From Rhizobiaceae bacterium (GTDB lineage Bacteria; Pseudomonadota; Alphaproteobacteria; Rhizobiales; Rhizobiaceae), in assembly GCA_019635715.1 (NCBI GenBank), contig JAHBYY010000048.1:1-35915 (forward strand): DNA of 35,915 nucleotides. Direction: 5' to 3'. Each line of letters opens with the position of its first letter. Position 1 is the stretch's first letter. Both the position numbers and the translations under genes were made by a program. The notes under the pieces were generated by a model. It was not told where the DNA came from. It saw only the letters and a program-made list of their open reading frames with translations, and made no database searches. Positions 5,252 to 27,526 of this stretch are shown here, piece after piece.

Positions 5252-6877
5252 TCAGCCGACTATATGCGCATTCGCAAGCGTGCCGAACACGCCGTTCGAG
5301 GTGACGATCGCGTCCTGGACGCGCTTGTTGTAGACCGCGAACTTGACCGGTCCGACCAGCGGCAGCACCGGAAGCTCGTCCGCGATGATGTGCTGGAACT
5401 TGTAGTAGAGGTCGTAGCGCTTCTTCTCGTCGACCTCGATCGAGGCATCCTCGAGCAGCTTGTCCACCTCGGGATTGTTGTAGCCGAGCGGATTCACGAA
5501 CGGGATGCCCTTGTTGTAGAGCGGCGAGTAGTAATAGCGCTGCACGCCGACGGCCGGATCGAACTGCGTGGAATAGCCGTCCGCCGTGAAGTCGAAATCA
5601 TGATCGGTGAAGATGCGCTTGACGTAGGCCGATACGTCCTGCGAGCGGATGGTCACCTCGATTCCGACCTTGCCGAGCTGCTGTTTGACGTACTCGACCT
5701 CGGTGCGGTAGGCCGGCTCGTCCGGATAGAAGTCGAGCGTCACGCTGAAGCGCTTGCCGCTGCCGTCCTTCGGGAAACCGGCCTCATCGAGCAGCGCCTC
5801 GGCCTTGGCCTGGTCGTTCGGATAAGTCGGCAGGTCCGTCGCATACCACTGCTTGGAGAGCGGGCTGAACGGGCCGTAGTTGGGGATCGCCCGGCCATAC
5901 CAGAGCGCCTTGGCCACGAATTCGCGGTCGATCATGTAGGCGACCGCCTGGCGGACGCGCTTGTCGGCGAACTCCTTGCGCATCAGGTTGAAGTGCAGGT
6001 TGGCGATCGTCGGGACGTAGGCGAAGCCGTTGTCGTTGACCGCCAGATGCTCCATCGCCGCCAGGCGGGCGAGATCGGCGATCGGCACGACTTCCGAGCT
6101 GGCCAGGTCGACCTCGCCGCTCTCCAGGCCGACGACACGCGAGCCGATGTCGGTGAAGGTGCGGAAGATCACCCGATCGACATAGGGCTTCGGCTTGTCC
6201 CAGTAGTCGGGATTCTTGTCGAGGATGATGTAGTTGCCGACTTCCCAGCTATTGAACTTGAACGGGCCGGTGCCGACCGGATTGTTGTTGTGCGGGTTCT
6301 CCTTGAGGTCCGTGCCTTCGTAGAGATGCTTCGGGATCATCGGCGTTTCGGAGCCCGCCAGAGCGGCGAGCAGGAACGGCTTCGGCGCCGACAGCTTGAA
6401 GATGGCCGTCGTCGCATCCGGCGTCTCGACGGCGGTCACGGTCGAGAAGGTGTTGCGGCCGCGCGGATGGACCTCCTTCAGCGTGGCGATCGAGAACGCC
6501 ACGTCGGCCGAGGAGAAGTCCTGGCCGTCGTGCCACTTCACGCCGGAGCGAAGCTTGAAGGTGTAGGTCAGCCCGTCCGGGCTCATCTCCCAGGATTCGG
6601 CGAGCGCCGGCATCGGCTTGATGTCGAAGTCGTAGGCGATCAGCCCTTCGAAGATCTTCGGGCAGACCGTGTTCTGCGGCGTGCCGGTCGACAGGAAGCT
6701 GGCGAGGTTGGTCGGGAAGGAGGCGAGCGCATGGGTGATCGTGCCCCCCTGCGCCGGTGCGGCTGCGTCTTCCGCCAGGGCGACCGTGCCTCCCATGGCG
6801 CCAAGCACGGCCATAGCGCTGCCGGCCTTCAGCAGACTGCGCCGGTCGATCATGGTCGGCGTTCTGTCGTTCTTCAT
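5252..6877 (-). CDS. Periplasmic solute-binding protein, family 5 (DppA/OppA-like)
   Basis: A 541-residue binding protein that delivers substrate to the DppBCDF-like importer. The N-terminus has a twin-arginine type signal, DRRSLLKAG (residues 11-19), and a hydrophobic stretch ending near ALAE. The family-5 fold is clear from LAESWEMSPDGLTYTFKLR and WHDGQDFSSADVAFS, and later from VRQAVAYMIDRE. The ATG at 6877 is preceded by GGGAGGAAACA, a very good ribosome site. Bound ligand in this family can be peptides, opines, nickel chelates, glutathione or sugars, so the substrate is unknown. A perfect palindrome (6955-6969) lies 78 bases upstream, in the gap after the sugar-type permease gene, and is the likely control site of the operon. 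Confidence 0.93.
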   Translation of the reverse strand: MKNDRTPTMIDRRSLLKAGSAMAVLGAMGGTVALAEDAAAPAQGGTITHALASFPTNLASFLSTGTPQNTVCPKIFEGLIAYDFDIKPMPALAESWEMSPDGLTYTFKLRSGVKWHDGQDFSSADVAFSIATLKEVHPRGRNTFSTVTAVETPDATTAIFKLSAPKPFLLAALAGSETPMIPKHLYEGTDLKENPHNNNPVGTGPFKFNSWEVGNYIILDKNPDYWDKPKPYVDRVIFRTFTDIGSRVVGLESGEVDLASSEVVPIADLARLAAMEHLAVNDNGFAYVPTIANLHFNLMRKEFADKRVRQAVAYMIDREFVAKALWYGRAIPNYGPFSPLSKQWYATDLPTYPNDQAKAEALLDEAGFPKDGSGKRFSVTLDFYPDEPAYRTEVEYVKQQLGKVGIEVTIRSQDVSAYVKRIFTDHDFDFTADGYSTQFDPAVGVQRYYYSPLYNKGIPFVNPLGYNNPEVDKLLEDASIEVDEKKRYDLYYKFQHIIADELPVLPLVGPVKFAVYNKRVQDAIVTSNGVFGTLANAHIVG

Positions 6878-6954
6878 TGTTTCCTCCCTGTGCGAACCGG
6901 TACGATCCGATGGGCCACGATGGTCATTTCACGGCTCTGGCTCAATACGGCCTT

Positions 6955-6969
6955 TGTCCAGATTGGACA
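6955..6969. promoter_or_regulatory. Perfect inverted repeat, candidate operator (site 1)
   Basis: TGTCCA GAT TGGACA, a perfect 6-3-6 palindrome in the 159-base gap between the sugar-type permease gene (stop at 7037) and the family-5 SBP start (6877). It is the best copy of a motif found ahead of several transcription units in this block. No clean -10/-35 pair could be assigned next to it. Proposed as a binding site for the HTH-SBP regulator encoded at 16084. Confidence 0.6.
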
Positions 6970-7036
6970 CGGACCAACCCGCGATCGGCTATCGGCGTTG
7001 CGCCGCCGGGGCGTTTCCAGGCGGGCCTCGAAAAGC

Positions 7037-7873
7037 TCAGCCGTCCTTGAGGCCGCCGGCGGACAATCCCGCCACGATCTGCTTCTGGGCAAAGACGGTG
7101 AGCAGCAGCACCGGCAGGCTGACGAGCAGCGCCGCCGCCGCCAGCGGTCCCCAGGACACCTGCTCGAAGGACAGCACATTGTAGACGGCCGACGGCAGGG
7201 TGCGCGCCTGCTTTCCGCCGAGCACGACGGAGAAGATGAAATTGTTCCAGGAGAAGATGAAGGCGAGGATCGAGCTGATGACGATGCCCGGCCTGGCGAG
7301 CGGCACGGCGATGTGGCGGAAGGCCTGCCAGGTCGTGCAGCCGTCGACCATCGCGGCGTCTTCGAGTTCGGCCGGCAGGCTCTCGAAGTAGCCGATCATG
7401 ATCCAGACGATGATCGGTATGGTGATGACGAGATGGGTGACGATCAGCGCGCCTATGGTGCCGACCATGCCCAGCAACTGGAAGACGATGAACAGCGGGA
7501 TCAGATAGGACAGCGCCGGGGTCATGCGGGCGATGAGGATGACGATCGCGAAGCGGCTCGACTTCGACCGGGCGATGCCGTAGCCGGCCGGCACGCCGAC
7601 CAGGAGCCCGATAAGCACGGCCCCTCCGGTGACCAGCACGGAGTTGATGAAATAGCCGAGGAAGTCGTTGCGCGAGAACACCGTCTCGTAATTGGCAAGC
7701 GTCGGCGGGCTCGGCACGAAGACCGGCGGGAAGGCCATGTTGTCGATCTCGCTCTTGAACGACAGGGAGATCGTCCAGAGGAAGAACAGGATCGCCGGCG
7801 ACACCAGCACGAACACCGCGAAGGCGAACGCGGCCTTGCGCAAGACCTTGAGCACCAGGCTTTCACCCTCCAT
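7037..7873 (-). CDS. Sugar-type ABC importer, inner-membrane permease (MalG/UgpE-like)
   Basis: A 278-residue permease of the carbohydrate (CUT1-type) class. It has a first helix at about residues 12-32, a periplasmic loop with FVPSPPTLANYETVFS, and five more helices. The EAA loop EDAAMVDGCTTWQAFRHIAVP is complete. The C-terminus ends in the common KQIVAGLSAGGLKDG sequence of MalG-type proteins. The ATG at 7873 shares one base with the stop of the MalF-like gene (TGATG), so they are translationally coupled; the longer frame to 8125 is not used. No ATPase gene follows; the next gene starts a separate operon. Confidence 0.93.
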   Translation of the reverse strand: MEGESLVLKVLRKAAFAFAVFVLVSPAILFFLWTISLSFKSEIDNMAFPPVFVPSPPTLANYETVFSRNDFLGYFINSVLVTGGAVLIGLLVGVPAGYGIARSKSSRFAIVILIARMTPALSYLIPLFIVFQLLGMVGTIGALIVTHLVITIPIIVWIMIGYFESLPAELEDAAMVDGCTTWQAFRHIAVPLARPGIVISSILAFIFSWNNFIFSVVLGGKQARTLPSAVYNVLSFEQVSWGPLAAAALLVSLPVLLLTVFAQKQIVAGLSAGGLKDG

Positions 7874-8796
7874 CAGGCGTTCCACTTCGTCTTCTGCCGC
7901 ACGTGCAGCATGAGCAGCGAGATGGCGACGATGACGGCGAAGAACACCACGACGACCGCCGAGGCATAGCCGATGTTGTAGTAGGCGAAGGCCTGCAGAT
8001 AGAGGAAGATGTTGATCGTTTCGGAGGCCGTGCCCGGCCCGCCGGAACTGATCACGAAGATGGTGTCGAAGACCTTGAGCGCGTCGATCACCCGGATGAT
8101 CAGCGCCACGAGGATGAAGGGCCACAGCAGCGGAAAGGTGATGTGGACGAACATCTGAAAGGAGTTCGCCCCGTCGATCAGCGCGGACTCATAGGGCTCG
8201 CGCGGCAGACCGGCCAATCCGCCGAGCACGATCAGCATGACCAGCGGGGTCCATTGCCAGACCTCCACCAGCACCAGCGTCGGAATGACCGTCGACGGGC
8301 TGTAGACCCAGGCCTGCGGCGGTATGCCGACCTGTGACAGGAGGTAGTTCAGCACGCCGAGCTGCGGGTGGAACATCATCGTCCACACCAGGGCGATCGC
8401 CACCGGCGTCGCCATCATCGGCATGACGAAGATCGTCCGCAGGATGCCGCGTCCGCGAAACTCCCGGTGGAACACGAGCGCGGCGAGTGTTCCCAGCACG
8501 ATGGGGATCAGCGTGGCGAGCAGCGTGAAGACCAAGGTGTGGACCAGCGCCTCGTGGAAGCGCTGGTCGGCGAACAACTGGCGATAGTTGTCCAGCCAAA
8601 CGAATGTCGTCCCGCCGCCGATCTCCCAGATGTGGAACGACATATAGACCGTGAACAGCCACGGGAAGACGATGACGGCCAGGATCACCACCGTGGCCGG
8701 CACGGCGAAGACCCAGTAGTTGCGCTTGAAATCCGGGCTTTCCGCCTGCGGCTCGTCGGATTCGACGAGCCCGGCGGCCGGCGACACGGCCGTCAC
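7873..8796 (-). CDS. Sugar-type ABC importer, inner-membrane permease (MalF/UgpA-like)
   Basis: A 307-residue permease partner of the MalG-like protein. After about 30 cytoplasmic residues there is a first helix (VPATVVILAVIVFPWLFTVY), then five more. The EAA loop reads YESALIDGANSFQMFVHITFP. The start chosen is the GTG at 8796 because GGGAGG lies six bases upstream and it falls 13 bases after the SBP stop; the open frame to 8886 would overlap the SBP gene. Typical length for this family is about 290-310 residues. Confidence 0.92.
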   Translation of the reverse strand: MTAVSPAAGLVESDEPQAESPDFKRNYWVFAVPATVVILAVIVFPWLFTVYMSFHIWEIGGGTTFVWLDNYRQLFADQRFHEALVHTLVFTLLATLIPIVLGTLAALVFHREFRGRGILRTIFVMPMMATPVAIALVWTMMFHPQLGVLNYLLSQVGIPPQAWVYSPSTVIPTLVLVEVWQWTPLVMLIVLGGLAGLPREPYESALIDGANSFQMFVHITFPLLWPFILVALIIRVIDALKVFDTIFVISSGGPGTASETINIFLYLQAFAYYNIGYASAVVVVFFAVIVAISLLMLHVRQKTKWNA

Positions 8797-8809
8797 GACC
8801 GCCTCCCGA

Positions 8810-10147
8810 TCAAGCCTTCTCGCTCTTCTCGAGGATCGGCCGGAACGCCTCCGTCGCGGCCTTGAGTTCAGGCGCGGCCTCGGCACCGCCGATCATGTTG
8901 GTGAGCGCCACGCCGAAGGTGTCGCGGAACTCGGTGACCGGGATGATGTCCGGCAGGCCCGGCCTGCCGATGTCGATCGACTTCACCAGCATGTCGAAAT
9001 AGGCCCTGGGCAGCGGCGAATTCTCGATGACGGCCGGATCCTTGAACGGCGAGATCCGCGCCGAGGAGCCAGCGCCGGTCTGCACCAGCATCGACTGGTT
9101 CTTCTTGTTCAGGTACCACTGCAGATAGAGCCAGGCCGGTCCCTTCTTCTTCGACCCTCGGGCGATGCCGATGCCTTCCGCAAAGATCGCAGACGCCGAT
9201 GCCTTGGGACCGGCGGGCATGACGCCGTAGCCGACCTTGCCGGCGATCCGCGATTTCGCGGGGTCTTCCATGGCACGGGCCCAGGCCGTCGAATCCAGCC
9301 ACATCGCCGCGTAGCCCTGGGTGAAGGTCGTCTGGCACTCGCTCCAGTTGAAGCCGATCGTGCCGGGCGGCGCATAGTCCTTGTTGAGGGTCCGGTAGAG
9401 GTTGGCCGCCCAGATCGCCTCGTCCGTATCGGTCATCAGCTTGCCGCCGGCATCGAGGGCGTCGATGTCCTGGCCGAACAGCAGGTTCATCCACACCGGC
9501 ACATTGGCGTTCTTCAACCCGCGCGACACGAAGCCGTAGACGTTGTTTTCGGGCTTGGTCAGCTTGGCCGCCACCTGGACGATGTCGTCCATCGAGGTCG
9601 GGAACTCGACGCCGGCCTGCTCGAACAGCTCCTTGTTGTAGTAGAGCAGGAAATAGTCGAGGCTGCAGGGCAGCGTGTCCATCCGGCCGTCGGCCTGCGT
9701 CGAGAAGGCGACGCCGCCACGGCTGATATCGGCGAAATCGAAGTCGGGCGCCGTCTGTTCGGGATCGTCCAGCATCGGCCGCAGGTCCTCGAGCCACTGC
9801 CCCTTGCCGGCGAGCCGCTTCATCACGGCCAGCGAGATGTTGGTGACGTCGAAGGTCGGGCTGCCGGAGGCGAATTCGATGACCTGCTTCTGGCGCGCCT
9901 GCTGCTCGGGGATCTGCTCCGACGAAACCTCGATGCCCGTCAGTTCGGTGAATTCATGCTCGACCGACTGGAAATAGTCGTTGCGCGGCGTCTTGGTCAG
10001 CGCGACGTCGATCTTCTCGCCGGCATAGCGCTTCCAATCGAAGCTCGATTGCGCATTGGCCCTCCGCACGATGGCCGGAGCACCCAGGATGGGTACGATG
10101 GCCGCGGCCTGCATCAGTCTCCGTCGTGAAATCCTGAAGGTGGTCAT
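8810..10147 (-). CDS. Periplasmic solute-binding protein, family 1 (sugar/polyol/organic-acid type)
   Basis: A 445-residue exported binding protein for the MalFG-like permeases. The signal region has a twin-arginine pattern (SRRRLMQAA, residues 7-15) and a likely cleavage after ANA in RRANAQ. Family-1 hallmarks are LLYYNKELFEQAG, the surrounding PTSMDDIVQVAAKL, and TQGYAAMWLDSTAWA near the middle. The ATG at 10147 has GGAGG seven bases upstream. The bases before both SBP genes of this block share the 12-mer CACAGGGAGGAA. It heads a three-gene operon that lacks an ATPase, so a shared ATPase encoded elsewhere must energise it. A degenerate operator copy lies at 10244-10258. Confidence 0.93.
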   Translation of the reverse strand: MTTFRISRRRLMQAAAIVPILGAPAIVRRANAQSSFDWKRYAGEKIDVALTKTPRNDYFQSVEHEFTELTGIEVSSEQIPEQQARQKQVIEFASGSPTFDVTNISLAVMKRLAGKGQWLEDLRPMLDDPEQTAPDFDFADISRGGVAFSTQADGRMDTLPCSLDYFLLYYNKELFEQAGVEFPTSMDDIVQVAAKLTKPENNVYGFVSRGLKNANVPVWMNLLFGQDIDALDAGGKLMTDTDEAIWAANLYRTLNKDYAPPGTIGFNWSECQTTFTQGYAAMWLDSTAWARAMEDPAKSRIAGKVGYGVMPAGPKASASAIFAEGIGIARGSKKKGPAWLYLQWYLNKKNQSMLVQTGAGSSARISPFKDPAVIENSPLPRAYFDMLVKSIDIGRPGLPDIIPVTEFRDTFGVALTNMIGGAEAAPELKAATEAFRPILEKSEKA

Positions 10148-10295: not shown

Positions 10296-11054
10296 TCAGA
10301 TCAGGATGCCGCCGTCGATCGGCATGGTGAGTCCGGTCATGTAGGAAGCCTCGCCGGAGAGCAGCATGACGATCGGCGCGGCGATCTCGCGCGCCTCGGC
10401 CGGCCGCTTCAGCTTCGATCGCGCCTCGAAATTGCGGGTCATGGCGTCGTCGGCCCGCTGCGCCAGGGTCATCTCGGTCGCCACGACGGCGGGCGCCACG
10501 GCATTTACCCGAATGCCGTAGGGGGCGAGGTCGCGGGCGAGCGTCTGCGTCAGGAGCTTCACCGCCGCCTTGGTCGGCGCATAGCCGGTCGGGCAGTTGC
10601 CGGAAACGAAGGCGCAGGTCGAGGCGATGTTGACGATCGAACCTTTGGTTCGCTTGAAGTGATCCAGGAAGGAATGGATCATGTACATGGTCCCGTCGAC
10701 ATTGACGGAGAAGCTCAGCCGCCATTTGTCGAGGAAGTCCGCGTCCTCGAAGCGCTCGCCGAGGCTGACGCCGGCGCAGTTGACCATACCGCAGATGTCG
10801 CCCTGTTCTTCCGCCACCCTGGCGGCCAAGGCACGCACGGCCTGCAGGTCGGACACGTCGAGACGATAGGCGGAAATCTTTGCGCCGCCCTGCCGCAAGG
10901 ACGCCGCAACGGCTTCCGCGCCCTGGAGATTGAGGTCGGCCAGGACGAGTTCGGCGCCTGCCGCGGCGACGTGCCGGGCGGTTTCCGCCCCGATGCCGCG
11001 CCCTGCCCCGGTGATCAGGACGCGGCGGCCGGCGAGCCTGCTGCTGGTCTGCAT
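10296..11054 (-). CDS. Short-chain dehydrogenase/reductase (SDR), NAD(H)-type
   Basis: A 252-residue classical SDR oxidoreductase, probably oxidising a hydroxyl group of a sugar, polyol or hydroxyacid. Motifs: TGAGRGIG (15-22), Asp40 after the second strand, favouring NAD over NADP, NCAG (92-95), Ser145 in NIAST, and the catalytic YAPTK (Tyr158, Lys162). The start at 11054 is chosen for the GGGAGGAAGAA just before the ATG; the extension to 11102 adds residues that fit nothing in the family. It lies directly upstream of the sugar-type importer, on the same strand, and divergent from the flavin dehydrogenase at 11272. The specific substrate is unknown. Confidence 0.92.
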   Translation of the reverse strand: MQTSSRLAGRRVLITGAGRGIGAETARHVAAAGAELVLADLNLQGAEAVAASLRQGGAKISAYRLDVSDLQAVRALAARVAEEQGDICGMVNCAGVSLGERFEDADFLDKWRLSFSVNVDGTMYMIHSFLDHFKRTKGSIVNIASTCAFVSGNCPTGYAPTKAAVKLLTQTLARDLAPYGIRVNAVAPAVVATEMTLAQRADDAMTRNFEARSKLKRPAEAREIAAPIVMLLSGEASYMTGLTMPIDGGILI

Positions 11055-11156
11055 TTCTTCCTCCCGTTGCCGATTTGCGAAGCCCCCGCCGGTTCGCGGC
11101 AAGGCCTGCTTCCCCGGTATTTGGGCTCGGCCGGAGGCTGGCCAGAACCCGGAGCA

Positions 11157-11182
11157 TGTCCATTGTGATTATCTTGGCACAT
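11157..11182. promoter_or_regulatory. Weak motif copy in the SDR/flavin-dehydrogenase divergent region
   Basis: The 217-base divergent region between the SDR start (11054) and the flavin dehydrogenase start (11272) contains TGTCCA (11157-11162) and, twelve bases later, TGGCACA. It is near the middle of the region, about 105 bases from each gene, in a locally AT-richer patch (TTGTGATTATC). The outer halves form an imperfect dyad with wider spacing than the other copies. It may be a variant operator or a chance match. Confidence 0.25.
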
Positions 11183-11271: not shown

Positions 11272-12675
11272 ATGAATGTCCATACGCCAGCCAAACGCAG
11301 CGAAGCGGTACGCCTGATCTTCGCCGACCTGCAGGCCCTGCTCGGCGAGCGGGCGACCCGCGCCAAGGCGGTGCGCGACGCGCATGGCCATGACGAATCC
11401 CACCATGCGTCGCAGGCACCCGACATCGTCGTCTTCGCCCGCTCGACCGAGGAAGTGGCCGAGATCGTGCGGCTTTGCGGCACCTACCGGCTGCCGGTGA
11501 TCGCCTTCGGCGCCGGCACGTCGCTGGAGGGCCAGGTCAATGCGGTCTGCGGCGGCGTCTGCATCGACCTTTCCCAGATGAACGCCATCCTGCGCGTCAG
11601 TCCCAACGATTTCGACTGCACGGTCGAGGCCGGGGTCCGCCGCAAGCAGTTGAACGAGCATCTGCGCGATACCGGCCTGTTCTTCCCGATCGATCCGGGG
11701 CCGGACGCGACCATCGGCGGCATGGCGGCCACCCGTGCCTCCGGCACCAACGCCGTGCGCTACGGGACCATGCGCGAAGCCGTGCTCTCGCTGACCGTGG
11801 TGGTCGACGGCGGAAGGGTCATCCGCACCGCGCAGCGCGCCCGCAAATCGTCGGCCGGCTACGATCTCACCCGCCTGTTCGTCGGCTCCGAAGGCACCAT
11901 CGGCATCATCACCGAGATCACCTTGCGGCTGCACGCCATCCCCGAGACGATCATCGTCGGCAGTGCCGTGTTCCCGGACGGACGACGCGCCGTCGACGCG
12001 GCGATCACCGCGCTGCAGCTCGGCGTTCCGCTGGCGCGCGCCGAATATCTCGACGAAGCGCAGATCGCCGCCATCAACCGCTTCTCGAAGCTCGACCTGC
12101 CGATCGCGCCGACGCTGTTCATGGAACTGCACGGCAGCCGCAAGCATCTGATCGACCAGATGGAGCTGCTGTTCGAGATCGTCACCGACAATGAAGGGCA
12201 CAGCTTCCGGCAGGCCGAAAGCCTGGAGGCACGCGCCGCCCTCTGGCAGGCCCGCCACGACGCCTACTACGCGGCGGTCAGCCAGCGCGCCGGCGGCAAG
12301 GGCTGGGCGACCGACGTCTGCGTGCCGGTGTCGCGGATCGCCGAGTGCATCGCCCTGACCAAGGACGACCTCGCCGACTGTCCTGTGCCGGCCTGTATCG
12401 TCGGCCATGTCGGCGACGGCAATTTCCACGTCATCTTCTCGCTCGATCCCGACAATGCGGAAGAGATGGAAGCGGTGGCCGCGATCAGCCGGCGGCTTGT
12501 ACGGCGGGCCATCTCCATGGACGGTACCTGCACCGGCGAACACGGCATCGGCCTCGGCAAGCGCAAATATCTTGTCGAGGAGCATGGCGACGCCGTCGAA
12601 CTGATGCGCACGCTCAAGGCGGCCTATGATCCGCTCGGCATCTTCAATCCGGGCAAGATGCTGCCGGCCGCCTGA
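11272..12675 (+). CDS. FAD-binding D-lactate dehydrogenase (cytochrome)/GlcD-type oxidase
   Basis: A 467-residue flavoprotein of the D-2-hydroxyacid dehydrogenase group (vanillyl-alcohol oxidase fold). It would oxidise D-lactate, glycolate or a related 2-hydroxyacid to the 2-oxoacid and pass electrons to the respiratory chain. The PCMH-type FAD domain occupies about residues 45-225 (FGAGTSLEGQ, PGPDATIGGMAATRASGTNA, SEGTIGIITEITLRL). The cap domain follows, with HVGDGNFHVIF and the conserved EHGIGLGKRKY (423-433). The ATG at 11272 follows GGGAG. It is the only plus-strand gene between 1.3 and 16 kb and is divergent from the SDR gene. A 21-bp hairpin follows the stop. Confidence 0.92.
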   Translation: MNVHTPAKRSEAVRLIFADLQALLGERATRAKAVRDAHGHDESHHASQAPDIVVFARSTEEVAEIVRLCGTYRLPVIAFGAGTSLEGQVNAVCGGVCIDLSQMNAILRVSPNDFDCTVEAGVRRKQLNEHLRDTGLFFPIDPGPDATIGGMAATRASGTNAVRYGTMREAVLSLTVVVDGGRVIRTAQRARKSSAGYDLTRLFVGSEGTIGIITEITLRLHAIPETIIVGSAVFPDGRRAVDAAITALQLGVPLARAEYLDEAQIAAINRFSKLDLPIAPTLFMELHGSRKHLIDQMELLFEIVTDNEGHSFRQAESLEARAALWQARHDAYYAAVSQRAGGKGWATDVCVPVSRIAECIALTKDDLADCPVPACIVGHVGDGNFHVIFSLDPDNAEEMEAVAAISRRLVRRAISMDGTCTGEHGIGLGKRKYLVEEHGDAVELMRTLKAAYDPLGIFNPGKMLPAA

Positions 12676-12760: not shown

Positions 12761-13354
12761 TTAGACGTTGACGCCCCGCCAGGGGTTCGGAAGCCGACTG
12801 TTGGAATAGCCGGAGACGAAGTCCTTGCCGGCGCCGGTCAGCGGATCGAACACGGCGCGCGACACCGCGCCGATATTGGCGCCGTAGACATGGATGCTGA
12901 TCGAGGTTTGGTCGGCAAGGGCGTTCGACACCTTGTGGATGTCGCCGACATTCGGCGACACGACGTCGACATCGCCGGGCTCGAGCCGATCGAGCCCGGT
13001 CTCGATCATCGGGGAACCCGCTTCATAGCGCAGCGAGGTCTCCGCCCCGCGCAGCATGCCGATCAGACCCCACACCGTGTGGTTGTGGATCGGGGTGGTC
13101 TGGCCCGGCCCCCATACGAAGCTGACGATCGAGAAACGCTCGAACGGATCGCAATAGAGCAGGTATTGCGAGTAGAACTGCGGGTGCGGCCGGGCGAATT
13201 CGTCCGGCAGCCAGTCATCCTGCGAGACCAGATCGGCGAGCAGCCGGCGGCCCTCGCCGATCATCACGGATTCGTCGCGACCGGCACGGTCGGCAAGCTC
13301 GCTCATGGCGGCGATGAAGCCGCCGAGCCGCGACGTCGAGGACCGGGCCGGCAT
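12761..13354 (-). CDS. Thiol dioxygenase, cupin fold (3-mercaptopropionate/cysteine dioxygenase family)
   Basis: A 197-residue non-haem iron enzyme that adds O2 to a thiol to give a sulfinic acid. Iron ligands of the family are visible: His90 and His92 in TPIHNHTVWG and His140 in VGDIHKVSN. The Ser-His-Tyr relay is S153-H155-Y157 in SISIHVYG. The length, DWLPDEFARPHPQ, FVWGPGQ and the ending SGYSNSRLPN are, from memory, those of the Gln-type bacterial enzymes that prefer 3-mercaptopropionate (Pseudomonas type) rather than mammalian cysteine dioxygenase. Cysteine cannot be excluded. It is nine bases downstream of an AhpD-like gene and likely shares its transcript; TauE lies further upstream on the same strand. 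Confidence 0.88.
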   Translation of the reverse strand: MPARSSTSRLGGFIAAMSELADRAGRDESVMIGEGRRLLADLVSQDDWLPDEFARPHPQFYSQYLLYCDPFERFSIVSFVWGPGQTTPIHNHTVWGLIGMLRGAETSLRYEAGSPMIETGLDRLEPGDVDVVSPNVGDIHKVSNALADQTSISIHVYGANIGAVSRAVFDPLTGAGKDFVSGYSNSRLPNPWRGVNV

Positions 13355-13363
13355 CGCAATGCC

Positions 13364-13717
13364 TCAGGCGGAGGCCGGAGCGCTCATCCCGTCATAGCAG
13401 TCGATGACGCGGGACGAGTAGACGAGCGCGGCGCCGGCGTTCAGCGCGATCGCCACGCCCAGCGCTTCCGCGATCTCCTCGCGAGAGGCGCCGAAGCCGA
13501 TGGCCGCCTCGACATGCGAGGCGATGCAGCCGTCGCAGCGGGTGGTGACGGCGACCGCCAGCGCGATCAGCTCGCGCGTCTTGCCGTCGAGATGGACGGC
13601 CTTTTCGCCCGAGCCGGCCAGTGCGGCATAGCCCTTCATCACTTCCGGCGCGAGCTTGCGCAGGTCGCCGACGCGGCTCTTGACGTTGGCGCGGTATTCT
13701 TTCCAGTTGAGCATCAT
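13364..13717 (-). CDS. AhpD/carboxymuconolactone-decarboxylase-like protein
   Basis: A 117-residue alpha-helical protein of the AhpD-like superfamily. The peroxidase-type active-site motif is CDGCIASH (Cys61, Cys64, His68), which allows thiol-disulfide chemistry. Two adjacent ATGs (13717, 13714) are possible starts; the longer open frame to 13777 adds an unlikely N-terminus. It immediately precedes the thiol dioxygenase gene. I infer that it handles disulfides or peroxides linked to that thiol, for example by keeping it reduced; the family also includes proteins with no known function. A candidate operator lies at 13855-13869, 138 bases upstream of the start. Confidence 0.88.
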   Translation of the reverse strand: MMLNWKEYRANVKSRVGDLRKLAPEVMKGYAALAGSGEKAVHLDGKTRELIALAVAVTTRCDGCIASHVEAAIGFGASREEIAEALGVAIALNAGAALVYSSRVIDCYDGMSAPASA

Positions 13718-13854
13718 CTGGCTGTTCCAGTCTTGTTGGCTGGCCTGCCCCCAATGCGGAACAGGACGTTTTCTCACCTGGCCGATGCGATCCCTCGCGG
13801 CAGCCTACCGACAAAAAGACTAGCAGCGCCGATGGCCCGCTCCGGGGCGGAAAT

Positions 13855-13869
13855 TGTCCAGATCGGACT
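13855..13869. promoter_or_regulatory. Inverted repeat, candidate operator (site 3)
   Basis: TGTCCA GAT CGGACT in the 216-base gap between the TauE stop (13934) and the AhpD-like start (13717). It keeps the same left half and the same GAT spacer as the perfect copy at 6955-6969; the right half matches at four of six positions. It would control the AhpD/thiol dioxygenase pair. Confidence 0.5.
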
Positions 13870-13933
13870 TGAATTCGGGTGCATTGCGCTTGACCGCGTC
13901 CGGCGTTCGCGCACGCCGCGAGCGCCGTATCAG

Positions 13934-14707
13934 CTATGACGCGACGATGACGGACAGGCCGTCCCACAGCAGCTTCAGCCCGACCAGCATGAGCAACGAA
14001 TAGGTCACCAGGTAGAACCGCTCCTGGTCGACGCGCCTGACCAGCCAGATGCCGGCATAGGTGGCGGCGACGGCCACCGGCGCCAGCAGCAGCGCCGCGC
14101 CGAGCGACCCGGTCGTCACCTGCCCGAGCGCGATATAGGCGATGGCCTTCACCCAGTTCATCACGCCGAAGAAGATGACGCTGGTGCCGACATAGATGTT
14201 GCGCGGCAGCCGCTGCGGCAGGACGAAGATCTGGAACGGCGGTCCGCCGGCATGGGCCACCATGCTGGTGAACCCGGCGCCCGCGCCGCACAGCCAGCCG
14301 AACGGCATCGACGGCCGCGACGGGGCGGCCGTCGCGCGCCTGGCGAGCAGCAGGAGCAGGCTGCGGCCGGCAAACGCCACCGAGATCGCCCCGAGCGCGA
14401 TCCCGACCGCGGCCTCCGACAGGTGCGCCGCGAGCCCATAGCCGATCAAGATGCCGACCAGTCCGGGCGGGATGAGGATGACGAGGTTCCTGCGATCGAA
14501 CTCGGCGCGGTAGTTCCAGATGCTCGCCACATCCTGCAGCATCAGCACCGGCAGCATGATCGCCGCCGCGGTCACCGGACCGACCGCGAAGGCCAGCAGC
14601 GGGGTCGACAGCATTCCCAGCCCCGAGAAGCCGCCCTTGCCGAGGCCGGCCAGCGTCACCGCGGTGACCGCGCAGAGGACGGCGACGGGCGTGAAGAATT
14701 CGGTCAC
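13934..14707 (-). CDS. TauE/SafE-family membrane exporter (sulfite/organosulfur type)
   Basis: A 257-residue protein with about eight hydrophobic helices and the family's repeated pattern (GLGKGGFSGLGMLSTPLLAF near the start, then GAGAGFTSMVAHAGGPPFQI in the second half). Members export sulfite, sulfoacetate or other small anions, and several have unknown substrates. Translation appears to start at the GTG at 14707; no better in-frame start was found. It lies 50 bases downstream of the hydroxyacid dehydrogenase, probably in the same transcript, and upstream of the thiol dioxygenase. That setting supports removal of sulfite formed from a sulfinic acid (inference). Confidence 0.88.
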   Translation of the reverse strand: MTEFFTPVAVLCAVTAVTLAGLGKGGFSGLGMLSTPLLAFAVGPVTAAAIMLPVLMLQDVASIWNYRAEFDRRNLVILIPPGLVGILIGYGLAAHLSEAAVGIALGAISVAFAGRSLLLLLARRATAAPSRPSMPFGWLCGAGAGFTSMVAHAGGPPFQIFVLPQRLPRNIYVGTSVIFFGVMNWVKAIAYIALGQVTTGSLGAALLLAPVAVAATYAGIWLVRRVDQERFYLVTYSLLMLVGLKLLWDGLSVIVAS

Positions 14708-14757: not shown

Positions 14758-15711
14758 TCAGTAGCCGCGCTCGGTATCGATGACGTTGATCAGCGGCTTG
14801 CCGGCGGCGAAGCGCTCAAGGTTCTCCGCAATGATCCCTCGCATTCGCGCCGCATTGCCGTCGCCGTCCCAGGCCAGATGCGACGTGATGCGCACCTTCG
14901 GATGCGTGTAGAACGGATGCCCTTCCGGCAGCGGTTCGGGTTCGGTGACGTCGAGCGTCGCGCGTGCCAGGTGCCCCTGCTGCAGCGCGTCGAGCAACGC
15001 GTCCTGATCGACCAGCCCGCCGCGCGCCACATTGATCAGGTGCAGGCCCGGCTTCGCGCGGGCGAGCGACTCGCGGTTGACGATATGGCGGGTTTCCCGA
15101 GTCGCCGGCATGGCCAGCACCAGATGGTCGGAGCAGGCGAACAAGGCGTTGATGTCGGCCACCGGCTCGACATCCGGCGGGGCGTCTGTCCAGGCGGAAC
15201 GGCGAAACGCGGCAACCTTCATGCCGAAGGCCCGCGCCCGTTCGGCCAGCGCCTGGCCGATGGCGCCGAAGCCCGCAATGCCGAGAACCTTGCCCTGCGG
15301 CGATCCCATCCTGATCTGCTTCCACTCCGACGGGCCGCGGATGCCGGTTTCGTGGACGCGCTTCTCCGTCCCCAGGATTTCTGCCATCACATATTCCGCG
15401 ATGGATGGGGCGTTCGAGCCGCGCGCCGAGGTGACCGTCACGTCCTTCAGGAGCCATTTCGGAAAGGCGTCGATTCCGACCGATTCCAACTGGATCCAGG
15501 CAAGTCCGGTCGGCCAGTCGGCCGGCCGTTCGGACGGAGCGCCCTTCCAGCCGGGCGGCGTGGTGATCAGGATCCGCGTTCGAGCGGGCAATTGCCAGCG
15601 GGGCGTTCCATTATCCGGAACGACCAGATCGAGGTCGGGAGCACAACCGGCGATGAGATTATTGATGTCGGGGCCGAGATGGCTGACGACCAGACTGCGT
15701 TTCGTGTTCAT
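14758..15711 (-). CDS. D-2-hydroxyacid dehydrogenase (NAD-binding, GhrB/SerA-like fold)
   Basis: A 317-residue dehydrogenase that interconverts a 2-oxoacid and a D-2-hydroxyacid with NAD(P)H. The Rossmann motif GFGAIG is at 147-152. Catalytic residues of the family are in place: Arg230 (NVARGGLVDQ), Glu259 (DVTEPEPLP) and His278 (ITSHLAW). The ATG at 15711 (MNTKRS) is preferred because it gives the usual length and follows AGGGCAGGA; the open frame to 15807 adds a hydrophobic lead with no family match. It is the first gene of the minus-strand group toward TauE and is divergent from the HTH-SBP regulator. Its substrate is unknown; a mercapto- or sulfo-substituted pyruvate is one speculative option. 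Confidence 0.9.
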   Translation of the reverse strand: MNTKRSLVVSHLGPDINNLIAGCAPDLDLVVPDNGTPRWQLPARTRILITTPPGWKGAPSERPADWPTGLAWIQLESVGIDAFPKWLLKDVTVTSARGSNAPSIAEYVMAEILGTEKRVHETGIRGPSEWKQIRMGSPQGKVLGIAGFGAIGQALAERARAFGMKVAAFRRSAWTDAPPDVEPVADINALFACSDHLVLAMPATRETRHIVNRESLARAKPGLHLINVARGGLVDQDALLDALQQGHLARATLDVTEPEPLPEGHPFYTHPKVRITSHLAWDGDGNAARMRGIIAENLERFAAGKPLINVIDTERGY

Positions 15712-16083
15712 TCCTGCCCTGGCGGTTGCTGATGCACTGTGCGGAATCGGAAATGCGCCCGCCGAAATGAGGCCGATCATTATCATAGTGATATAAATCG
15801 ACCTCATTCCGGGCAGCGTTCCCGGTACTATCCATAGCCATCATCCGCCTTCGGCGCGGAGTCGTGTAGCCCAAGAATGTCCAGTTTGGGCGCAAGACGG
15901 CCTTGGCGGTAAGGTGCCGGCAAATGCCGGCTGTGAGTTCGGGAGGCGCACAACCAAATCACCTGCGGATTGCAATAGATGGTGCTTCATCTGCCTGTCC
16001 GCTCGCGGGCAAGGAAGGGACACCGGACACCGCGCGGAGGAGCGGATTGCACGGCAGGGGCGCCGGAAGATCGGGAGGAGTGC
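15712..16083. other. Divergent intergenic region upstream of the hydroxyacid dehydrogenase and the HTH-SBP regulator
   Basis: These 372 bases hold no convincing gene. They contain an AT-rich patch at about 15778-15800; on the minus strand it reads TATGATAATGAT and could serve as a -10 for the dehydrogenase, though no good -35 was found. There is also a candidate operator at 15878-15892 and the ribosome site GGGAGGAG just before 16084. The open frame that extends the regulator upstream to 15979 is judged non-coding because this ribosome site fits the ATG at 16084. Confidence 0.6.
15878..15892. promoter_or_regulatory. Inverted repeat, candidate operator (site 4)
   Basis: TGTCCA GTT TGGGCG in the divergent region, 167 bases from the hydroxyacid dehydrogenase start and 192 bases from the regulator start. 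The left half is identical to the perfect copy and the right half matches at four of six positions. A site here would allow autoregulation of the HTH-SBP gene together with control of its divergent neighbour. Confidence 0.45.
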
Positions 16084-17778
16084 ATGAACGACTTCGAGAC
16101 GCTGAGGCTGATCAGCCTGATCGACAGGGTGCGCGGCACCTTCGGCGACATGATGCCGATGTCCGACGAGGAACCTGTCTGGAACGCCACGTCCTTCCTG
16201 ATCCGCAGCGAGATCAGCGGCAAGCTGGTGACGATCTCCACTCTCTGCGACGTCACCGGCGTGCCCTACGCGACCTCGCGGCGCCTCATCAACCGGATGA
16301 TCAACGAAGGGCTGATCCTGCGCACCGTGCGCAGCCGCACCGGCAAGAGCTACGCCCTGCACCCGAGCCCTGCCCTGCTGGCCAGCTTCGAGGCCTACGG
16401 CCGCAAGATGAAAGCGCTGATCGCCCAGACGATCGGCAAGCGTTCCACCGACGAAGACGACGACGACTACTATTTCGGCGGCGCCCAGCCGACGCTTCCG
16501 GCGGCCGTCGGCGCCGATCCCGGCGAACGCGACGACCTGCGTTTCCTGCTCAACGACGACAACTACGCCTTCGCGGTGCGCAACATGTGGTCGGATTTCC
16601 GGACCAACCTCGGCTCGACCCGCGACTTCAAGCTGATGACCTGTCCGAACGTCCACAACGAGCTGGTCGAGAACAGCAAGCTGCCGGTCTCGCGATACGA
16701 CGTGGTCGGCATCAACCTGCCCTGGCTCGGCGAATTCGTCGAGCGCGGCGCGCTGGTGCCGATCGGCGACATGCTGGAGGGCACGGATCTCCGCGAAACC
16801 ATCCATCCCGACTTCTGGCAGGCGGGCCGCTGGCGCGGCCGGGTCTACGGCGTCCCGATCTATGCGACGGTGAACCTGCTCGCCGCGCGCAGCGATCTCT
16901 TCTCGGCGGCCGAAATGGCCTATCCCCGTACCTTCGACGAGGTGATCGCGGCCGGCCGCAAGCTGGCCAGTCCCTCGCAGGGCCGCTACGGCGTCGTCTG
17001 GGATGCGGCGCGCGGCATGCCGATCTCGCATTCCTTCATGTTCTTCATGGGCGCGGCCGGCAGCCCGATGCTTTCGCTGCGCAAGACGTTCCGCGGCTAC
17101 ACGATCGACAACCTCGACTTCGAGGATCTGATCCCGACGATCGACAACGACATCGGCCGCTCGACGCTCGACTTCATGCACCGGCTGACCGAGATCTCGC
17201 CTCCGGACGTGCTCGACCTCGCCTGGGACGATGCCCTGCACGTCTTCCTGACCGGGCAGGCGGCGATGTCCTATTGCTGGTCGATGCGCGCAGCCCGCTT
17301 CGAATACGATCTGCGTTCGGCGGTGAAGCGCCGCGTCAGCTACCTGACCCATCCGACGCGCACCGGATCCGCCGGAACCGTGCCGATCGGCGGGTTCCTG
17401 CTGGCCGTTCCGTCCAACCTGCCGGAAGACCGGCGCCAGAGCGCGATCCGGGCGATCGAGATGATGACCTCGCGCGAAACGCCGAAATCCTGCGCGCCGA
17501 GCGGCCTGCCGGTATCGTCCAACTTCCGCCTCAGCGCCGACCCGGAGATGAAGGCCGGTTCGCCGGTCGCCAACTTCGTCGACAAATGGGCGGCCAAGGG
17601 CCTGCTGCAGACATGGCAGCGTCCGGCGATCCCGCAGTTCCATGCCATAGACACGATCCTCGGCGAGGAGATCCACGCGGCGCTGTCGCGCAGCAAGAGC
17701 GATGCCTGCGCGCTGCGCGACGCCACGCTCAGGATGGAACGCGCGCTGTCAAAGGTGGTGCAGTTCCGCGCCGCTTAA
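16084..17778 (+). CDS. Fusion of a winged helix-turn-helix with a cytoplasmic family-1 solute-binding domain; predicted transcription regulator
   Basis: A 564-residue protein with no signal peptide or membrane segment. Residues about 35-110 look like a MarR-type winged helix: TISTLCDVTGV leads to the recognition helix PYATSRRLINRMINEGLI (61-78) and a wing with TVRSRTGKSYAL. An acidic linker follows (DEDDDDYY, 123-130). From about 180 to 540 the sequence is a family-1 binding protein: PWLGEFVERGALVPI, NLLAARSDLFSAAEMAYPRTFDEVIAAGRKL in two parts, and a C-terminal lobe with GGFLLAVPSNL. Binding proteins are normally exported, so this one must act in the cytosol as a ligand sensor. GGGAGGAG lies just before the ATG. 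It is adjacent to two importers and divergent from the hydroxyacid dehydrogenase. DNA binding and ligand are inferred. Confidence 0.85.
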   Translation: MNDFETLRLISLIDRVRGTFGDMMPMSDEEPVWNATSFLIRSEISGKLVTISTLCDVTGVPYATSRRLINRMINEGLILRTVRSRTGKSYALHPSPALLASFEAYGRKMKALIAQTIGKRSTDEDDDDYYFGGAQPTLPAAVGADPGERDDLRFLLNDDNYAFAVRNMWSDFRTNLGSTRDFKLMTCPNVHNELVENSKLPVSRYDVVGINLPWLGEFVERGALVPIGDMLEGTDLRETIHPDFWQAGRWRGRVYGVPIYATVNLLAARSDLFSAAEMAYPRTFDEVIAAGRKLASPSQGRYGVVWDAARGMPISHSFMFFMGAAGSPMLSLRKTFRGYTIDNLDFEDLIPTIDNDIGRSTLDFMHRLTEISPPDVLDLAWDDALHVFLTGQAAMSYCWSMRAARFEYDLRSAVKRRVSYLTHPTRTGSAGTVPIGGFLLAVPSNLPEDRRQSAIRAIEMMTSRETPKSCAPSGLPVSSNFRLSADPEMKAGSPVANFVDKWAAKGLLQTWQRPAIPQFHAIDTILGEEIHAALSRSKSDACALRDATLRMERALSKVVQFRAA

Positions 17779-23697: not shown

Positions 23698-23862
23698 ATG
23701 TCCCAAAAATCACGGCAGATCGGAAAAATCCGGATCGCTGTGAAGCGCCTCATGGAACTCCTGTCGCGCGATGGCTACGAACCCCACAGGCACTACATGC
23801 GCGGTCCGGGCCCAAAGGCGAAGGCCCGCCAGACCAAGTCGCGGGACCAGGCGCGCGGATGA
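23698..23862 (+). CDS. Small basic protein of unknown function, first gene of the soe operon
   Basis: A 54-residue protein starting MSQKSRQIGKIRIAVKRL and continuing through SRDGYEPHRHYMRGPGP to a Lys/Arg-rich tail. No domain is recognised, and there is no signal peptide, membrane segment or cysteine. The ATG at 23698 follows AGGTCGGA. The stop overlaps the ATG of the molybdoenzyme gene (ATGATG), which suggests translational coupling and argues that the ORF is real. It might be a small chaperone or assembly factor for the enzyme, by analogy with small genes in other molybdoenzyme operons; that is a guess. The start at 23638 is also open but less likely. Confidence 0.6.
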   Translation: MSQKSRQIGKIRIAVKRLMELLSRDGYEPHRHYMRGPGPKAKARQTKSRDQARG

Positions 23863-26792
23863 TGCCCTCGGCCTTCCGCGGCGCCAATTCCGCGCCCTCG
23901 CAGCGACCGCTCGACGACACCAGGGCTCCCTCCGAGGGCGACGGCGTCGAGACCTCGCCGAAGATCGGTGACAGCGTCGCCCGGACGACCTGCTACATGT
24001 GCGCCTGTCGATGCGGCATCGAGGTGCATCTTCGCGACGGACAGGTCCGCTACATCAACGGCAACAAGGACCACCCGGTCAATCGCGGCGTCATCTGCGG
24101 CAAGGGCAGCGCCGGCATCATGCAGCACTACAGCCCGGCCCGCCTGCGCAAGCCGCTGCTGCGGACCGGCGAGCGCGGATCCGGCGAATTCCGCGAGATC
24201 GAGTGGGACGAGGCGCTGGCGATCGCCAGCGAGCGGCTGGCGCACCTCCGCTCGACCGATCCCAAGAAGCTCGCCTTCTTCACCGGACGCGACCAGTCGC
24301 AGTCCTTGACCGGATGGTGGGCGAAGCAGTTCGGCACGCCGAATTTCGCCGCCCATGGCGGATTCTGCTCGGTCAACATGGCGGCCGGCGGCCTCTACAC
24401 GATCGGCGGCTCGTTCTGGGAGTTCGGCGAGCCCGATTGGGAAAACACCAAATACTTCATGCTGTTCGGCGTGGCGGAAGACCACGATTCGAACCCCATC
24501 AAGATCGGCCTCGGCAAGCTCAAGGCGCGCGGCGCCAAGATCGTCTCGATCAATCCCTGCCGCACCGGCTACAACGCCATCGCCGACGACTGGATCGGCA
24601 TCCGGCCTGGCACCGACGGCCTGTTCGTCATGGCGATCATCCATGAACTGCTGCGCGCCGGGCGCGTCGATCTCGACTATCTGCTGCGCTACACCAATGC
24701 CGGCTGGCTGGTCGCCGAGGCTCCCGGCACGGCCGATGACGGGCTCTTCCTGCGCGGCGCCGACGGCGAGGCGCTGGTGTGGGACAGGCACCGGGCGGCG
24801 GCGGTCGCGTGGAATGCGTCCGGGGCCGCCGCGGCGCTGAGCGGGAGCTACACGGTCGACGGGACGCCATGCGTACCGGTGTTCCAGAGAATCGCCGAAC
24901 GCTATCTGGACCCGAACTACGGTCCCGACGCGGTATCCGAGCGCTGCGGCGTGCCGGCAGCCGAGATCCGACGCATCGCCGCCGAACTCGCCCATGTCGC
25001 CTTCGAGCAGGAGATCGAACTGCCGATCGCCTGGACCGACTGGACCGGCCGAAGGCATGCGACGATGAAGGGACGTCCCGTGGCGATGCATGCCATGCGC
25101 GGCATCTCCGCCCATTCCAACGGCTTCCACACCTGCCGGGCGATCCATCTCCTGCAGGTGCTGCTCGGCAGCATCGACGTTCCCGGCGGCTTCCGCTTCA
25201 AGCCGCCCTACCCCAAATCCGCACCGCCCGGACCAAAACCGTCAGGCAAGGACGGCGGCAAGCCGATGACGCCGCTCGACGGGATGCCGCTCGGCTTCGT
25301 CGCCGCCCCCGAGGATCTGCTGGTCGATGATGCCGGAAGGCCGCTGCGCATCGACAAGGCCTATTCATGGGAGGCGCCGCTGGCCGCCCACGGCCTGATG
25401 CACACGGTGATCCGCAACGCCTGGGCCGGCGACCCCTACCCCATCGACACGCTGTTCCTCTACATGGCCAACATGGCCTGGAACTCGTCGATGAATACCG
25501 TCGAGACCATTCGCATGCTGACGGACCGCGGCGAGGACGGCAGCTACAGGATCCCCTTCATCATCTACTGCGACGCCTACAATTCCGAGACGGTGTCCTA
25601 TGCCGACCTCGTCCTGCCCGACACGACCTATCTGGAGCGCCACGACTGCATCAGCCTGCTCGACCGGCCGATCAGTGATGCCGACGGGCCGGGCGATGCG
25701 ATCCGCCACCCGGTGGTGAAGCCCGACCGCGACGTCCGCCCCTTTCAGAGCGTGCTGATCGATCTCGGGGCCCGGCTCGGGCTTCCAGGCTTCGTCGACG
25801 ACGACGGAGCGCCGAAATACCGCGACTACGCCGACTACATCGTCAATCACGAGCGCATGCCGGGCGTCGGCCCGCTCGCCGGCTGGCGCGGCGAGGACGG
25901 GCAAAGCAGCGGGCGCGGCGCGCCGAACCCGAACCAGCTCGATCGCTACATCGCCAATGGCGGCTTCTGGCATCACGAATTCGCGGCCGAAGAGCGCTAC
26001 TACAAGATGGCGAACCGGGCCTATCTCGACACCGCCGTGCGCCTCGGCTTCCTGCCGAAGGCCGAACCGATCATCTTCCAGCTCTACAGCGAACCGCTGC
26101 AGAAGTTCAGGCTGGCGGCGGACGGGCATGGTCCGGCGGTGCCGCCACCCGCCGACCGCGAGCGTATCAGGACCTTCTGCGATCCTCTGCCGATCTGGTT
26201 CGAACCGCTGGAACAGGCTGCCGTCGACGCCGAGGCCTATCCGCTGCACGCCATCACCCAGCGTCCCATGCACATGTATCATTCCTGGGGATCGCAGAAT
26301 GCCTGGCTGCGCCAGATCACCAGCCAGAACAGGCTGTTCGTCAATGCGGGCACCGCGGCTGGGATGGGACTGGTCGACGACGACTGGGTGTGGATTGAGA
26401 GCGCCAATGGACGCGTCAAGGGTCAGATCAAGCTGATGGACGGCGTCAATGCGAACACGGTGTGGACCTGGAACGCCACCGGCAAGCGCAAAGGCGCATG
26501 GGGCCTGAAGGACGACGCGGCCGAATCGAACCGCGCATTCCTGCTGAACCATGCGATCGGCGACCTGCTGCCGCGGGGCGTCAACGGCAAGCGTTACTCC
26601 AACTCCGATCCGGTCACCGGGCAGGCCGCCTGGTTCGACCTGCGGGTGCGCCTGCGCAAGTGCGCTCGGGGCGAAGAGGGTTTTGCCGAGCCGGCGTTTC
26701 CAAAACTCCGGCGGCCGCCCGGACTGCCGGCTTCGCCGGACGAGCTGTCCTTCGGCGCGCAGTTCAATCCGACAAGGACCGACGCGAGATGA
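23859..26792 (+). CDS. soeA: Molybdopterin oxidoreductase, SoeA-like catalytic subunit of cytoplasmic sulfite dehydrogenase
   Basis: A 977-residue DMSO-reductase-family enzyme. A [4Fe-4S] site lies at the N-terminus: Cys45, Cys48, Cys52 and Cys80 (CYMCACRCGI, then VICGKG). It is followed by SPARLRKPLL and RGSGEFREIEWDEAL of the molybdopterin domains. Cys169 in HGGFCSVN is the likely Mo ligand. The C-terminal cofactor domain has QRPMHMYHSWGSQNAWLRQI. There is no twin-arginine signal, so it is cytoplasmic, unlike DMSO, polysulfide or tetrathionate reductases. The length, the CACRCGI motif and the following DmsB- and DmsC-like genes fit SoeABC, which oxidises sulfite to sulfate and feeds quinone. 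A reductase or other anion substrate cannot be excluded from sequence. Confidence 0.8.
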   Translation: MMPSAFRGANSAPSQRPLDDTRAPSEGDGVETSPKIGDSVARTTCYMCACRCGIEVHLRDGQVRYINGNKDHPVNRGVICGKGSAGIMQHYSPARLRKPLLRTGERGSGEFREIEWDEALAIASERLAHLRSTDPKKLAFFTGRDQSQSLTGWWAKQFGTPNFAAHGGFCSVNMAAGGLYTIGGSFWEFGEPDWENTKYFMLFGVAEDHDSNPIKIGLGKLKARGAKIVSINPCRTGYNAIADDWIGIRPGTDGLFVMAIIHELLRAGRVDLDYLLRYTNAGWLVAEAPGTADDGLFLRGADGEALVWDRHRAAAVAWNASGAAAALSGSYTVDGTPCVPVFQRIAERYLDPNYGPDAVSERCGVPAAEIRRIAAELAHVAFEQEIELPIAWTDWTGRRHATMKGRPVAMHAMRGISAHSNGFHTCRAIHLLQVLLGSIDVPGGFRFKPPYPKSAPPGPKPSGKDGGKPMTPLDGMPLGFVAAPEDLLVDDAGRPLRIDKAYSWEAPLAAHGLMHTVIRNAWAGDPYPIDTLFLYMANMAWNSSMNTVETIRMLTDRGEDGSYRIPFIIYCDAYNSETVSYADLVLPDTTYLERHDCISLLDRPISDADGPGDAIRHPVVKPDRDVRPFQSVLIDLGARLGLPGFVDDDGAPKYRDYADYIVNHERMPGVGPLAGWRGEDGQSSGRGAPNPNQLDRYIANGGFWHHEFAAEERYYKMANRAYLDTAVRLGFLPKAEPIIFQLYSEPLQKFRLAADGHGPAVPPPADRERIRTFCDPLPIWFEPLEQAAVDAEAYPLHAITQRPMHMYHSWGSQNAWLRQITSQNRLFVNAGTAAGMGLVDDDWVWIESANGRVKGQIKLMDGVNANTVWTWNATGKRKGAWGLKDDAAESNRAFLLNHAIGDLLPRGVNGKRYSNSDPVTGQAAWFDLRVRLRKCARGEEGFAEPAFPKLRRPPGLPASPDELSFGAQFNPTRTDAR

Positions 26793-27523
26793 CCTGCGTG
26801 CCGGCCGCAACCGACCGCAAGCTCGGTCTCGTCATCGATCTCGACACCTGCGTCGGCTGCCAGGCCTGCGTCACCTCCTGCAAGGAATGGAACACCGGCG
26901 GCCAGATGGCGCCGCTGACCGACATCCATCCCTATGGCGGCGACGTCGACGGCGTCTGGTTCAACCGCGTCCACACCTATGAGCACAGCACGGCAGCCGG
27001 CACCCGAACGGTCAATTTCCCGCGCTCGTGCCTGCATTGCGCCGAACCGGCCTGCGTCACCGTGTGCCCGACCGGCGCTTCCTACAAGCGCAAATCCGAC
27101 GGCATCGTCCTGGTCGACGAGGACAAGTGCATCGGCTGCAAACTGTGCAGTTGGGCCTGCCCCTACGGCGCCCGCGAGTTCGACGTGGCGGTCGGCGTGA
27201 TGAAGAAGTGCACGCTGTGCGTCGACCGCATCTACAACGACAATCTGCCGGAGGAGGATCGCGTGCCGGCCTGCGTTGCCGCCTGCCCGACATCGGCGCG
27301 GCATTTCGGCGACCTGGGCGACCCGGCATCGGCGGTCTCGGCCCTGGTGGCGGAGCGCGGCGGCGTCGCGCTGATGCCAGAGCTCGACTACCAGCCGACC
27401 AACCGCTACCTGCCGCCGCGGGCCCGGACCGACCGGGCGCCGAAAATGAATGCCTCGCCGCTGGAGGACGCGTCGCCGCACGGCGGCTTCCTCGGCTGGG
27501 TCGACCGCATGCTGTCGCGCTGA
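26789..27523 (+). CDS. soeB: Four-cluster ferredoxin-like subunit, SoeB-like
   Basis: A 244-residue electron-transfer subunit linking the molybdenum subunit to the membrane anchor. Four [4Fe-4S] clusters can be laid out from the cysteines: 21/24/27/31 (CVGCQACVTSC), 81/84/89/93 (CLHCAEPACVTVC), 114/117/120/124 (CIGCKLCSWAC) and 141/144/162/166. No signal peptide is present, consistent with a cytoplasmic face. The ATG at 26789 overlaps the stop of the catalytic gene (ATGA); the longer open frame from 26462 runs inside soeA and is not coding. Confidence 0.85.
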   Translation: MTCVPAATDRKLGLVIDLDTCVGCQACVTSCKEWNTGGQMAPLTDIHPYGGDVDGVWFNRVHTYEHSTAAGTRTVNFPRSCLHCAEPACVTVCPTGASYKRKSDGIVLVDEDKCIGCKLCSWACPYGAREFDVAVGVMKKCTLCVDRIYNDNLPEEDRVPACVAACPTSARHFGDLGDPASAVSALVAERGGVALMPELDYQPTNRYLPPRARTDRAPKMNASPLEDASPHGGFLGWVDRMLSR

Positions 27524-27526
27524 CCG

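Follow-up and report, generated by a model that had tools for sequence, protein, structure and literature searches.

The window (the whole stretch of DNA analyzed, 35,915 nucleotides) encodes a protein in which a MarR-like winged helix is followed by a complete solute-binding protein (SBP) domain of the SBP_bac_1 family. The protein is probably a cytosolic one-component regulator, with a MarR-like dimer sitting on a palindrome, the SBP_bac_1 domain sensing an intracellular ligand, and the flanking operons under its control.

In the proposed mechanism, a dimer of the winged helices would bind a palindrome of 15–19 bp (about TRTCCA-N3-TGGAYA). The SBP_bac_1 domain, which may be derived from the binding protein of a sugar/polyol importer, would close on the ligand inside the cell and reposition the two DNA-binding heads. 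The candidate targets (Table 1) are the promoter from which the regulator diverges from the 2-hydroxyacid dehydrogenase and TauE genes, followed by CMD/CDO and the Opp-type importer operon with SBP_bac_5. As promoter scans found no sigma-70-like promoter near the operators, an activator and a repressor are not distinguished; repression relieved by the ligand is the slight favorite.

Table 1. Features of the window, with positions counted from its first nucleotide.
Feature	Positions	Strand	Remarks
Winged-helix/SBP_bac_1 fusion regulator	16084–17778	+	564 aa, open frame
MarR-like winged helix	16084–16449	+	residues 1–122; structure prediction, fold search
YYFGG linker motif	16468–16482	+	residues 129–133
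SBP_bac_1 domain	16552–17754	+	residues 157–557; Pfam, profile alignment
D-2-hydroxyacid dehydrogenase, divergent neighbor	14758–15807	-	predicted target
TauE/SafE-type permease	13934–14707	-	predicted target
CMD/AhpD-like protein	13364–13777	-	predicted target
Cysteine-dioxygenase-like cupin (CDO)	12761–13354	-	predicted target
Exported SBP_bac_5, opening an Opp-type importer operon that extends to 1329	5252–6877	-	predicted target
Exported SBP_bac_1 named in the initial annotation	8810–10147	-	link to regulator unsupported
Predicted operator 5′ of the SBP_bac_5/Opp operon	6953–6971		score 12.9, first; contains perfect palindrome 6955–6969
Predicted operator, divergent promoter of the regulator	15876–15894		score 12.7, second
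Predicted operator between TauE and CMD	13853–13871		score 11.3, third
Weak possible site between SDR 10296–11102 (-) and FAD oxidase 11272–12675 (+)	11155–11173		score 7.3

Domain architecture of the fusion protein

A direct check confirms that the frame is open from 16084 to 17778. The start at 16084 is supported by a Shine-Dalgarno-like sequence, GGGAGGAG, and by a stop codon immediately 5′ of the equivalent Met in locus L024. An alternative in-frame ATG at 15979 was set aside. The overall organization put forward in the initial annotation (a winged helix, then a complete SBP domain, with no visible export signal) is confirmed by structure prediction, fold search, profiles and hydropathy.

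Residues 1–123 are predicted as a winged helix (AF2, pLDDT 83.5), and the modeled fold includes all of the N-terminal 110 residues. MarR structures head the fold-search matches of the predicted head and account for most of the rows, with TFE-alpha at rank 2 in one search. The predicted fold is of the MarR type, as annotated. The recognition helix covers approximately residues 62–74, and R67 in this helix is invariant in all 35 aligned sequences. The winged helix lies below the Pfam cut-offs (HTH_29, E 0.0044; MarR_2, E 0.0083, with 16.7 bits against a cut-off of 27), and MarR_2 is matched by 10 of 35 relatives at E 0.01. A profile of ten N-terminal sequences has no significant match among PDB sequences, the best being TubR (0.016) and a MarR protein (0.018).

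The head is connected to the SBP domain by a segment that had been annotated as an acidic hinge, residues 123–130. An acidic run is present, but it spans residues 123–128 and is poorly conserved in the alignment. The YYFGG linker next to it is mostly conserved among the relatives.

The match to the Pfam SBP_bac_1 model covers residues 205–463 (E 4.8e-19, 69.9 bits against a cut-off of 26), and this Pfam domain is found in 35 of 35 relatives. SBP_bac_1 and SBP_bac_8 are the only SBP models of Pfam that are matched. Profile alignments extend over most of the SBP domain for the exported family-1 SBPs 5iai (E 4e-58), 1eu8 (trehalose/maltose, 3e-39) and 4rya (sorbitol, 9e-33). Unlike these importer parts, the regulator carries a DNA-binding head, and no export signal is visible in it. 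In the full-length structure model the winged helix is confident, whereas the SBP half is poor (mean pLDDT 48) and unreliable. The annotation of a full family-1 solute-binding domain nonetheless holds at the level of sequence, including the profile alignment with 5iai.

Product names were collected for 14 annotated copies on plasmids, hand-picked from 34 records with a full-length match. Twelve copies are named 'extracellular solute-binding protein', one a periplasmic sugar-transport component, and one hypothetical. By these names the protein would be an exported part of an importer whose N-terminus is unusual, and a complete SBP domain would fit this as well. It is extremely unlikely, however, as hydropathy and inspection reveal no apparent export signal at the N-terminus, which is predicted as a helix (AF2), and a winged helix is predicted in place of a signal peptide. 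Within the first 60 residues, hydrophobicity over 19 residues peaks at 0.92 in a stretch that begins at residue 37, inside the winged helix, compared to 1.28 and 1.35 by the same measure near the N-termini of the two other SBPs of the window, in agreement with the annotated lack of a signal peptide. Moreover, the genes in the 14 plasmid regions are single and stand alone, often divergent from the cluster. The regulator is most likely an intracellular gene switch and not an exported SBP, and transcription factors beside catabolic clusters would then be filed as transport parts in 12 of the 14 copies.

Relatives and comparison with known regulators

Co-linear relatives with 64–25% identity are found in Alphaproteobacteria and a few Betaproteobacteria. 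In the same family, 15 of 151 genomes match at E ≤1e-20, 13 of these over the whole architecture. The matching genomes number at least 8 of 385 in the class (at 1e-75) and at least 6 of 398 in the phylum (at 1e-60), both tallies being lower bounds with up to three candidates scored per genome. The genome of the window is included in all three counts. Ten loci from one scan include Mesorhizobium and Kaistia. A match is present in 290 plasmid records, and in 34 of them it spans 80% or more of the query; these 34 are mostly alphaproteobacterial, with two from Paraburkholderia. In addition, the genome of the window contains a paralogue with the same architecture and 44% identity (contig C118, 13915–15597; L002 and L047).

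The tree of SBP domains has a branch (98/99) that separates the 35 fusion members from eight SBP-only sequences, several of the latter on long branches. The SBP-only set consists of seven of the eight fetched loci (L004 left out) and the SBP of the window.

The LacI and LysR regulators use a binding-protein fold for ligand sensing. Unlike them, the protein described here has a full SBP_bac_1 domain as its sensor, and it has no Pfam match to their domains. MarR proteins are generally single-domain; here the head, below the Pfam cut-off for MarR_2, is fused to an SBP domain. SgrR of E. coli is a cytosolic regulator that has an HTH at the N-terminus and a complete SBP domain at the C-terminus. 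For its homologue DsvR of V. cholerae, passages of PMC13060122 describe an HTH at the N-terminal end and an SBP_bac5 domain at the C-terminal end. The fusion protein is similar to both in being a cytosolic regulator with an HTH followed by a complete SBP domain. There are differences, however. The sensor is SBP_bac_1 here and SBP_bac_5 in SgrR and DsvR, and the operator and the neighboring genes are also different. The regulator has no SBP_bac_5 match in Pfam, and the NCBIfam SgrR model is not matched at E 0.1.

The initial annotation considered such an architecture unusual in proteobacteria. The principle is known from SgrR and DsvR, whereas the SBP_bac_1 version and its operator may be new. 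Neither a comparable SBP_bac_1 regulator nor its operator was found described in the open-licence PMC literature, a collection outside which most subscription papers lie. A term search of PMC5882156 gives no mention of solute-binding or SgrR.

The palindrome upstream of the regulator genes

The palindrome at 6955–6969, TGTCCAGATTGGACA, had been reported in the initial annotation and suggested as a binding site of the protein; its sequence and position are confirmed. At a score of 14 or above, the palindrome WWTATCCA-N3-TGGATAWW is found upstream of the regulator in 29 of the 41 non-redundant loci, compared to 0.55 expected from dinucleotide shuffles. Of 356 control blocks taken from these loci, 9 have it. 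It is the predicted operator of the regulator. The symmetric matrix was seeded with sites within two mismatches of the 6955–6969 palindrome and iterated on the loci counted, the matrix used to score a given locus lacking the site of that locus but retaining those of its relatives. The 41 loci are the full set of 44 minus the near-copies L026, L028 and L049. By the plain pattern, the 1,500 bases upstream of the gene contain the palindrome with at most two mismatches in 17 of the 44 loci. Clustering at 60% protein identity divides the 44 loci into 14 groups. Eleven of these have an upstream site at a score of at least 10, and in one of the eleven, clade II (see below), it is found in three members only.

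No upstream site reaches a score of 10 in L037, L038, L042 and L046; a site with two mismatches is located in the gap that follows the L042 regulator gene. The nine control-block sites comprise three in gaps between annotated genes (two in L035 and one in L038), one inside an annotated permease gene (L041, position 5704), and five in unannotated loci (L023, L047, L053 and two in L024).

With a matrix trained without the window, the top three sites of the 35.9 kb are those at 6953, 15876 and 13853, followed by that at 11155. All four are intergenic, while intergenic DNA makes up 6.7% of the window by the gene map. The plain pattern with at most two mismatches gives three sites in the window, and 2 of 100 shuffles give at least as many. 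The divergent promoter of L030, the closest syntenic locus (64% identity), contains a perfect palindrome; another site of this locus, at 6035, directly precedes CMD, matching the place of 13853 in the window.

The exact sequence TGTCCANNNTGGACA occurs only at 6955–6969 in the 4.57 Mb of the genome that were searched, and allowing one mismatch gives 8 places compared to 5 for the control. The relaxed pattern TRTCCRNNNYGGAYA gives 5 places, as does the reversed control, and distant regulon members are therefore not claimed. The predicted operator should allow regulons to be mapped by sequence, with ligands sought from the clusters under control.

There is a different palindrome in one sub-clade of ten loci (clade II; L025, L026 and L028 are near-copies). 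Here TATCCANNNTGGATA with at most two mismatches is at the chance level (1 found, 1.2 expected), whereas TTCTCANNNTGAGAA, a pattern chosen after these loci had been inspected, gives 20 sites in nine of the ten loci at the same tolerance, compared to about 3 expected. The locus without a site is L032, and L027 has one TGTCCA-type site in addition. In all other loci, 4 sites of TTCTCANNNTGAGAA are found and 15 are expected. The recognition helix differs as well. The 35-sequence alignment takes in seven of the ten loci (L026, L028 and L031 left out), and all seven have F62 and S64; 27 of the 28 other sequences combine T64 with Y62 or H62. The sub-clade is one supported branch (100/100), and as a result the link between operator and helix rests on a single event. 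The paralogue in the genome of the window belongs to this sub-clade with the other palindrome, and two TTCTCA-type sites are located in the 19.9 kb around it. The operator change provides a natural test of winged-helix residues against the bases that they read.

The regulator itself is predicted to bind the palindrome. That the palindrome is instead the site of another regulator or a shared promoter element, with the protein acting otherwise, would be compatible with the correlative nature of the co-occurrence and with an operator change that happened once. We consider this very unlikely, as gene and palindrome remain together while the remaining neighborhood changes, and the palindrome differs where the recognition helix differs.

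We lean towards an undescribed proteobacterial regulator family, in which a MarR-like head acquired the binding domain of a sugar/polyol importer, apparently in a single event. The operator would be near-constant at only 30% identity, yet rewired in one sub-clade together with residues 62 and 64, and the genome of the window would have one member of each kind, perhaps mutually insulated. The control-block site in a coding region and the single origin of the operator change call for caution in this reading.

Gene neighborhood and candidate ligands

L030 retains the dehydrogenase (52% identity), CMD (83%) and CDO (70%). The CDO-like cupin is under the Pfam cut-off in the window and over it in L030. 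Neither TauE nor an importer of the 8810–10147 type is found in L030 within 17 kb.

This importer has a bearing on the ligand, as the initial annotation proposed a common ligand for the regulator and the exported SBP_bac_1, with one recognition fold shared by importer and regulator. Both proteins belong to Pfam SBP_bac_1, the weak fourth site is located in the gap before the SDR-SBP_bac_1-permease genes, and SBP_bac_1-type importer genes are present near the relatives in L038 and L042. However, the two proteins have only 24% identity over 236 residues when aligned, and the importer is missing from L030 over the distance given above. The perfect operator precedes the SBP_bac_5/Opp operon rather than the 8810–10147 importer, which leaves the shared ligand unsupported, and we regard it as unlikely. 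SBP_bac_5 genes also adjoin the regulator in L058 (divergent, with a predicted site between) and L049 (downstream, lacking its own site).

Genes labeled as sugar ABC transporters are present in 10 of the 14 plasmid regions, and one further region, L037, has an ABC importer whose label names no substrate. Four regions (L033, L034, L035 and L038) contain genes for both maleylacetate reductase and intradiol dioxygenase. Nine cleft-side residues were compared in 35 sequences, reading NWYTWWRFR in 17, DWQTWYLYR in 12, and variants in 6. The regulator of the window shares NWYTWWRFR with L033–L035, which have the intradiol dioxygenase clusters, and its ligand class may therefore be theirs. From the clusters and the nearest solved SBPs, our guess would be a polyol- or cyclitol-like ligand, or a product of its catabolism.

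The clusters beside the regulator in L033, L034, L035 and L038 contain YciI in addition to the two enzymes, and most of them also have Gfo/Idh and dehydrogenase genes. They possibly encode a cyclitol-to-hydroxyquinol route. No description of a cluster of this type was found in the open-licence PMC literature.

Other parts of the window contain recognizable gene groups. The region 7037–10147 has the SBP_bac_1 gene with two MalF/MalG-type permeases, and family scans show no adjacent ATPase gene. An IS630-type transposase is located at the left contig end (154–1223), in two adjacent frames. Finally, a molybdopterin oxidoreductase, a 4Fe-4S protein and a DmsC-like anchor follow each other at 23859–28462, corresponding to a respiratory molybdoenzyme of the DMSO-reductase type.
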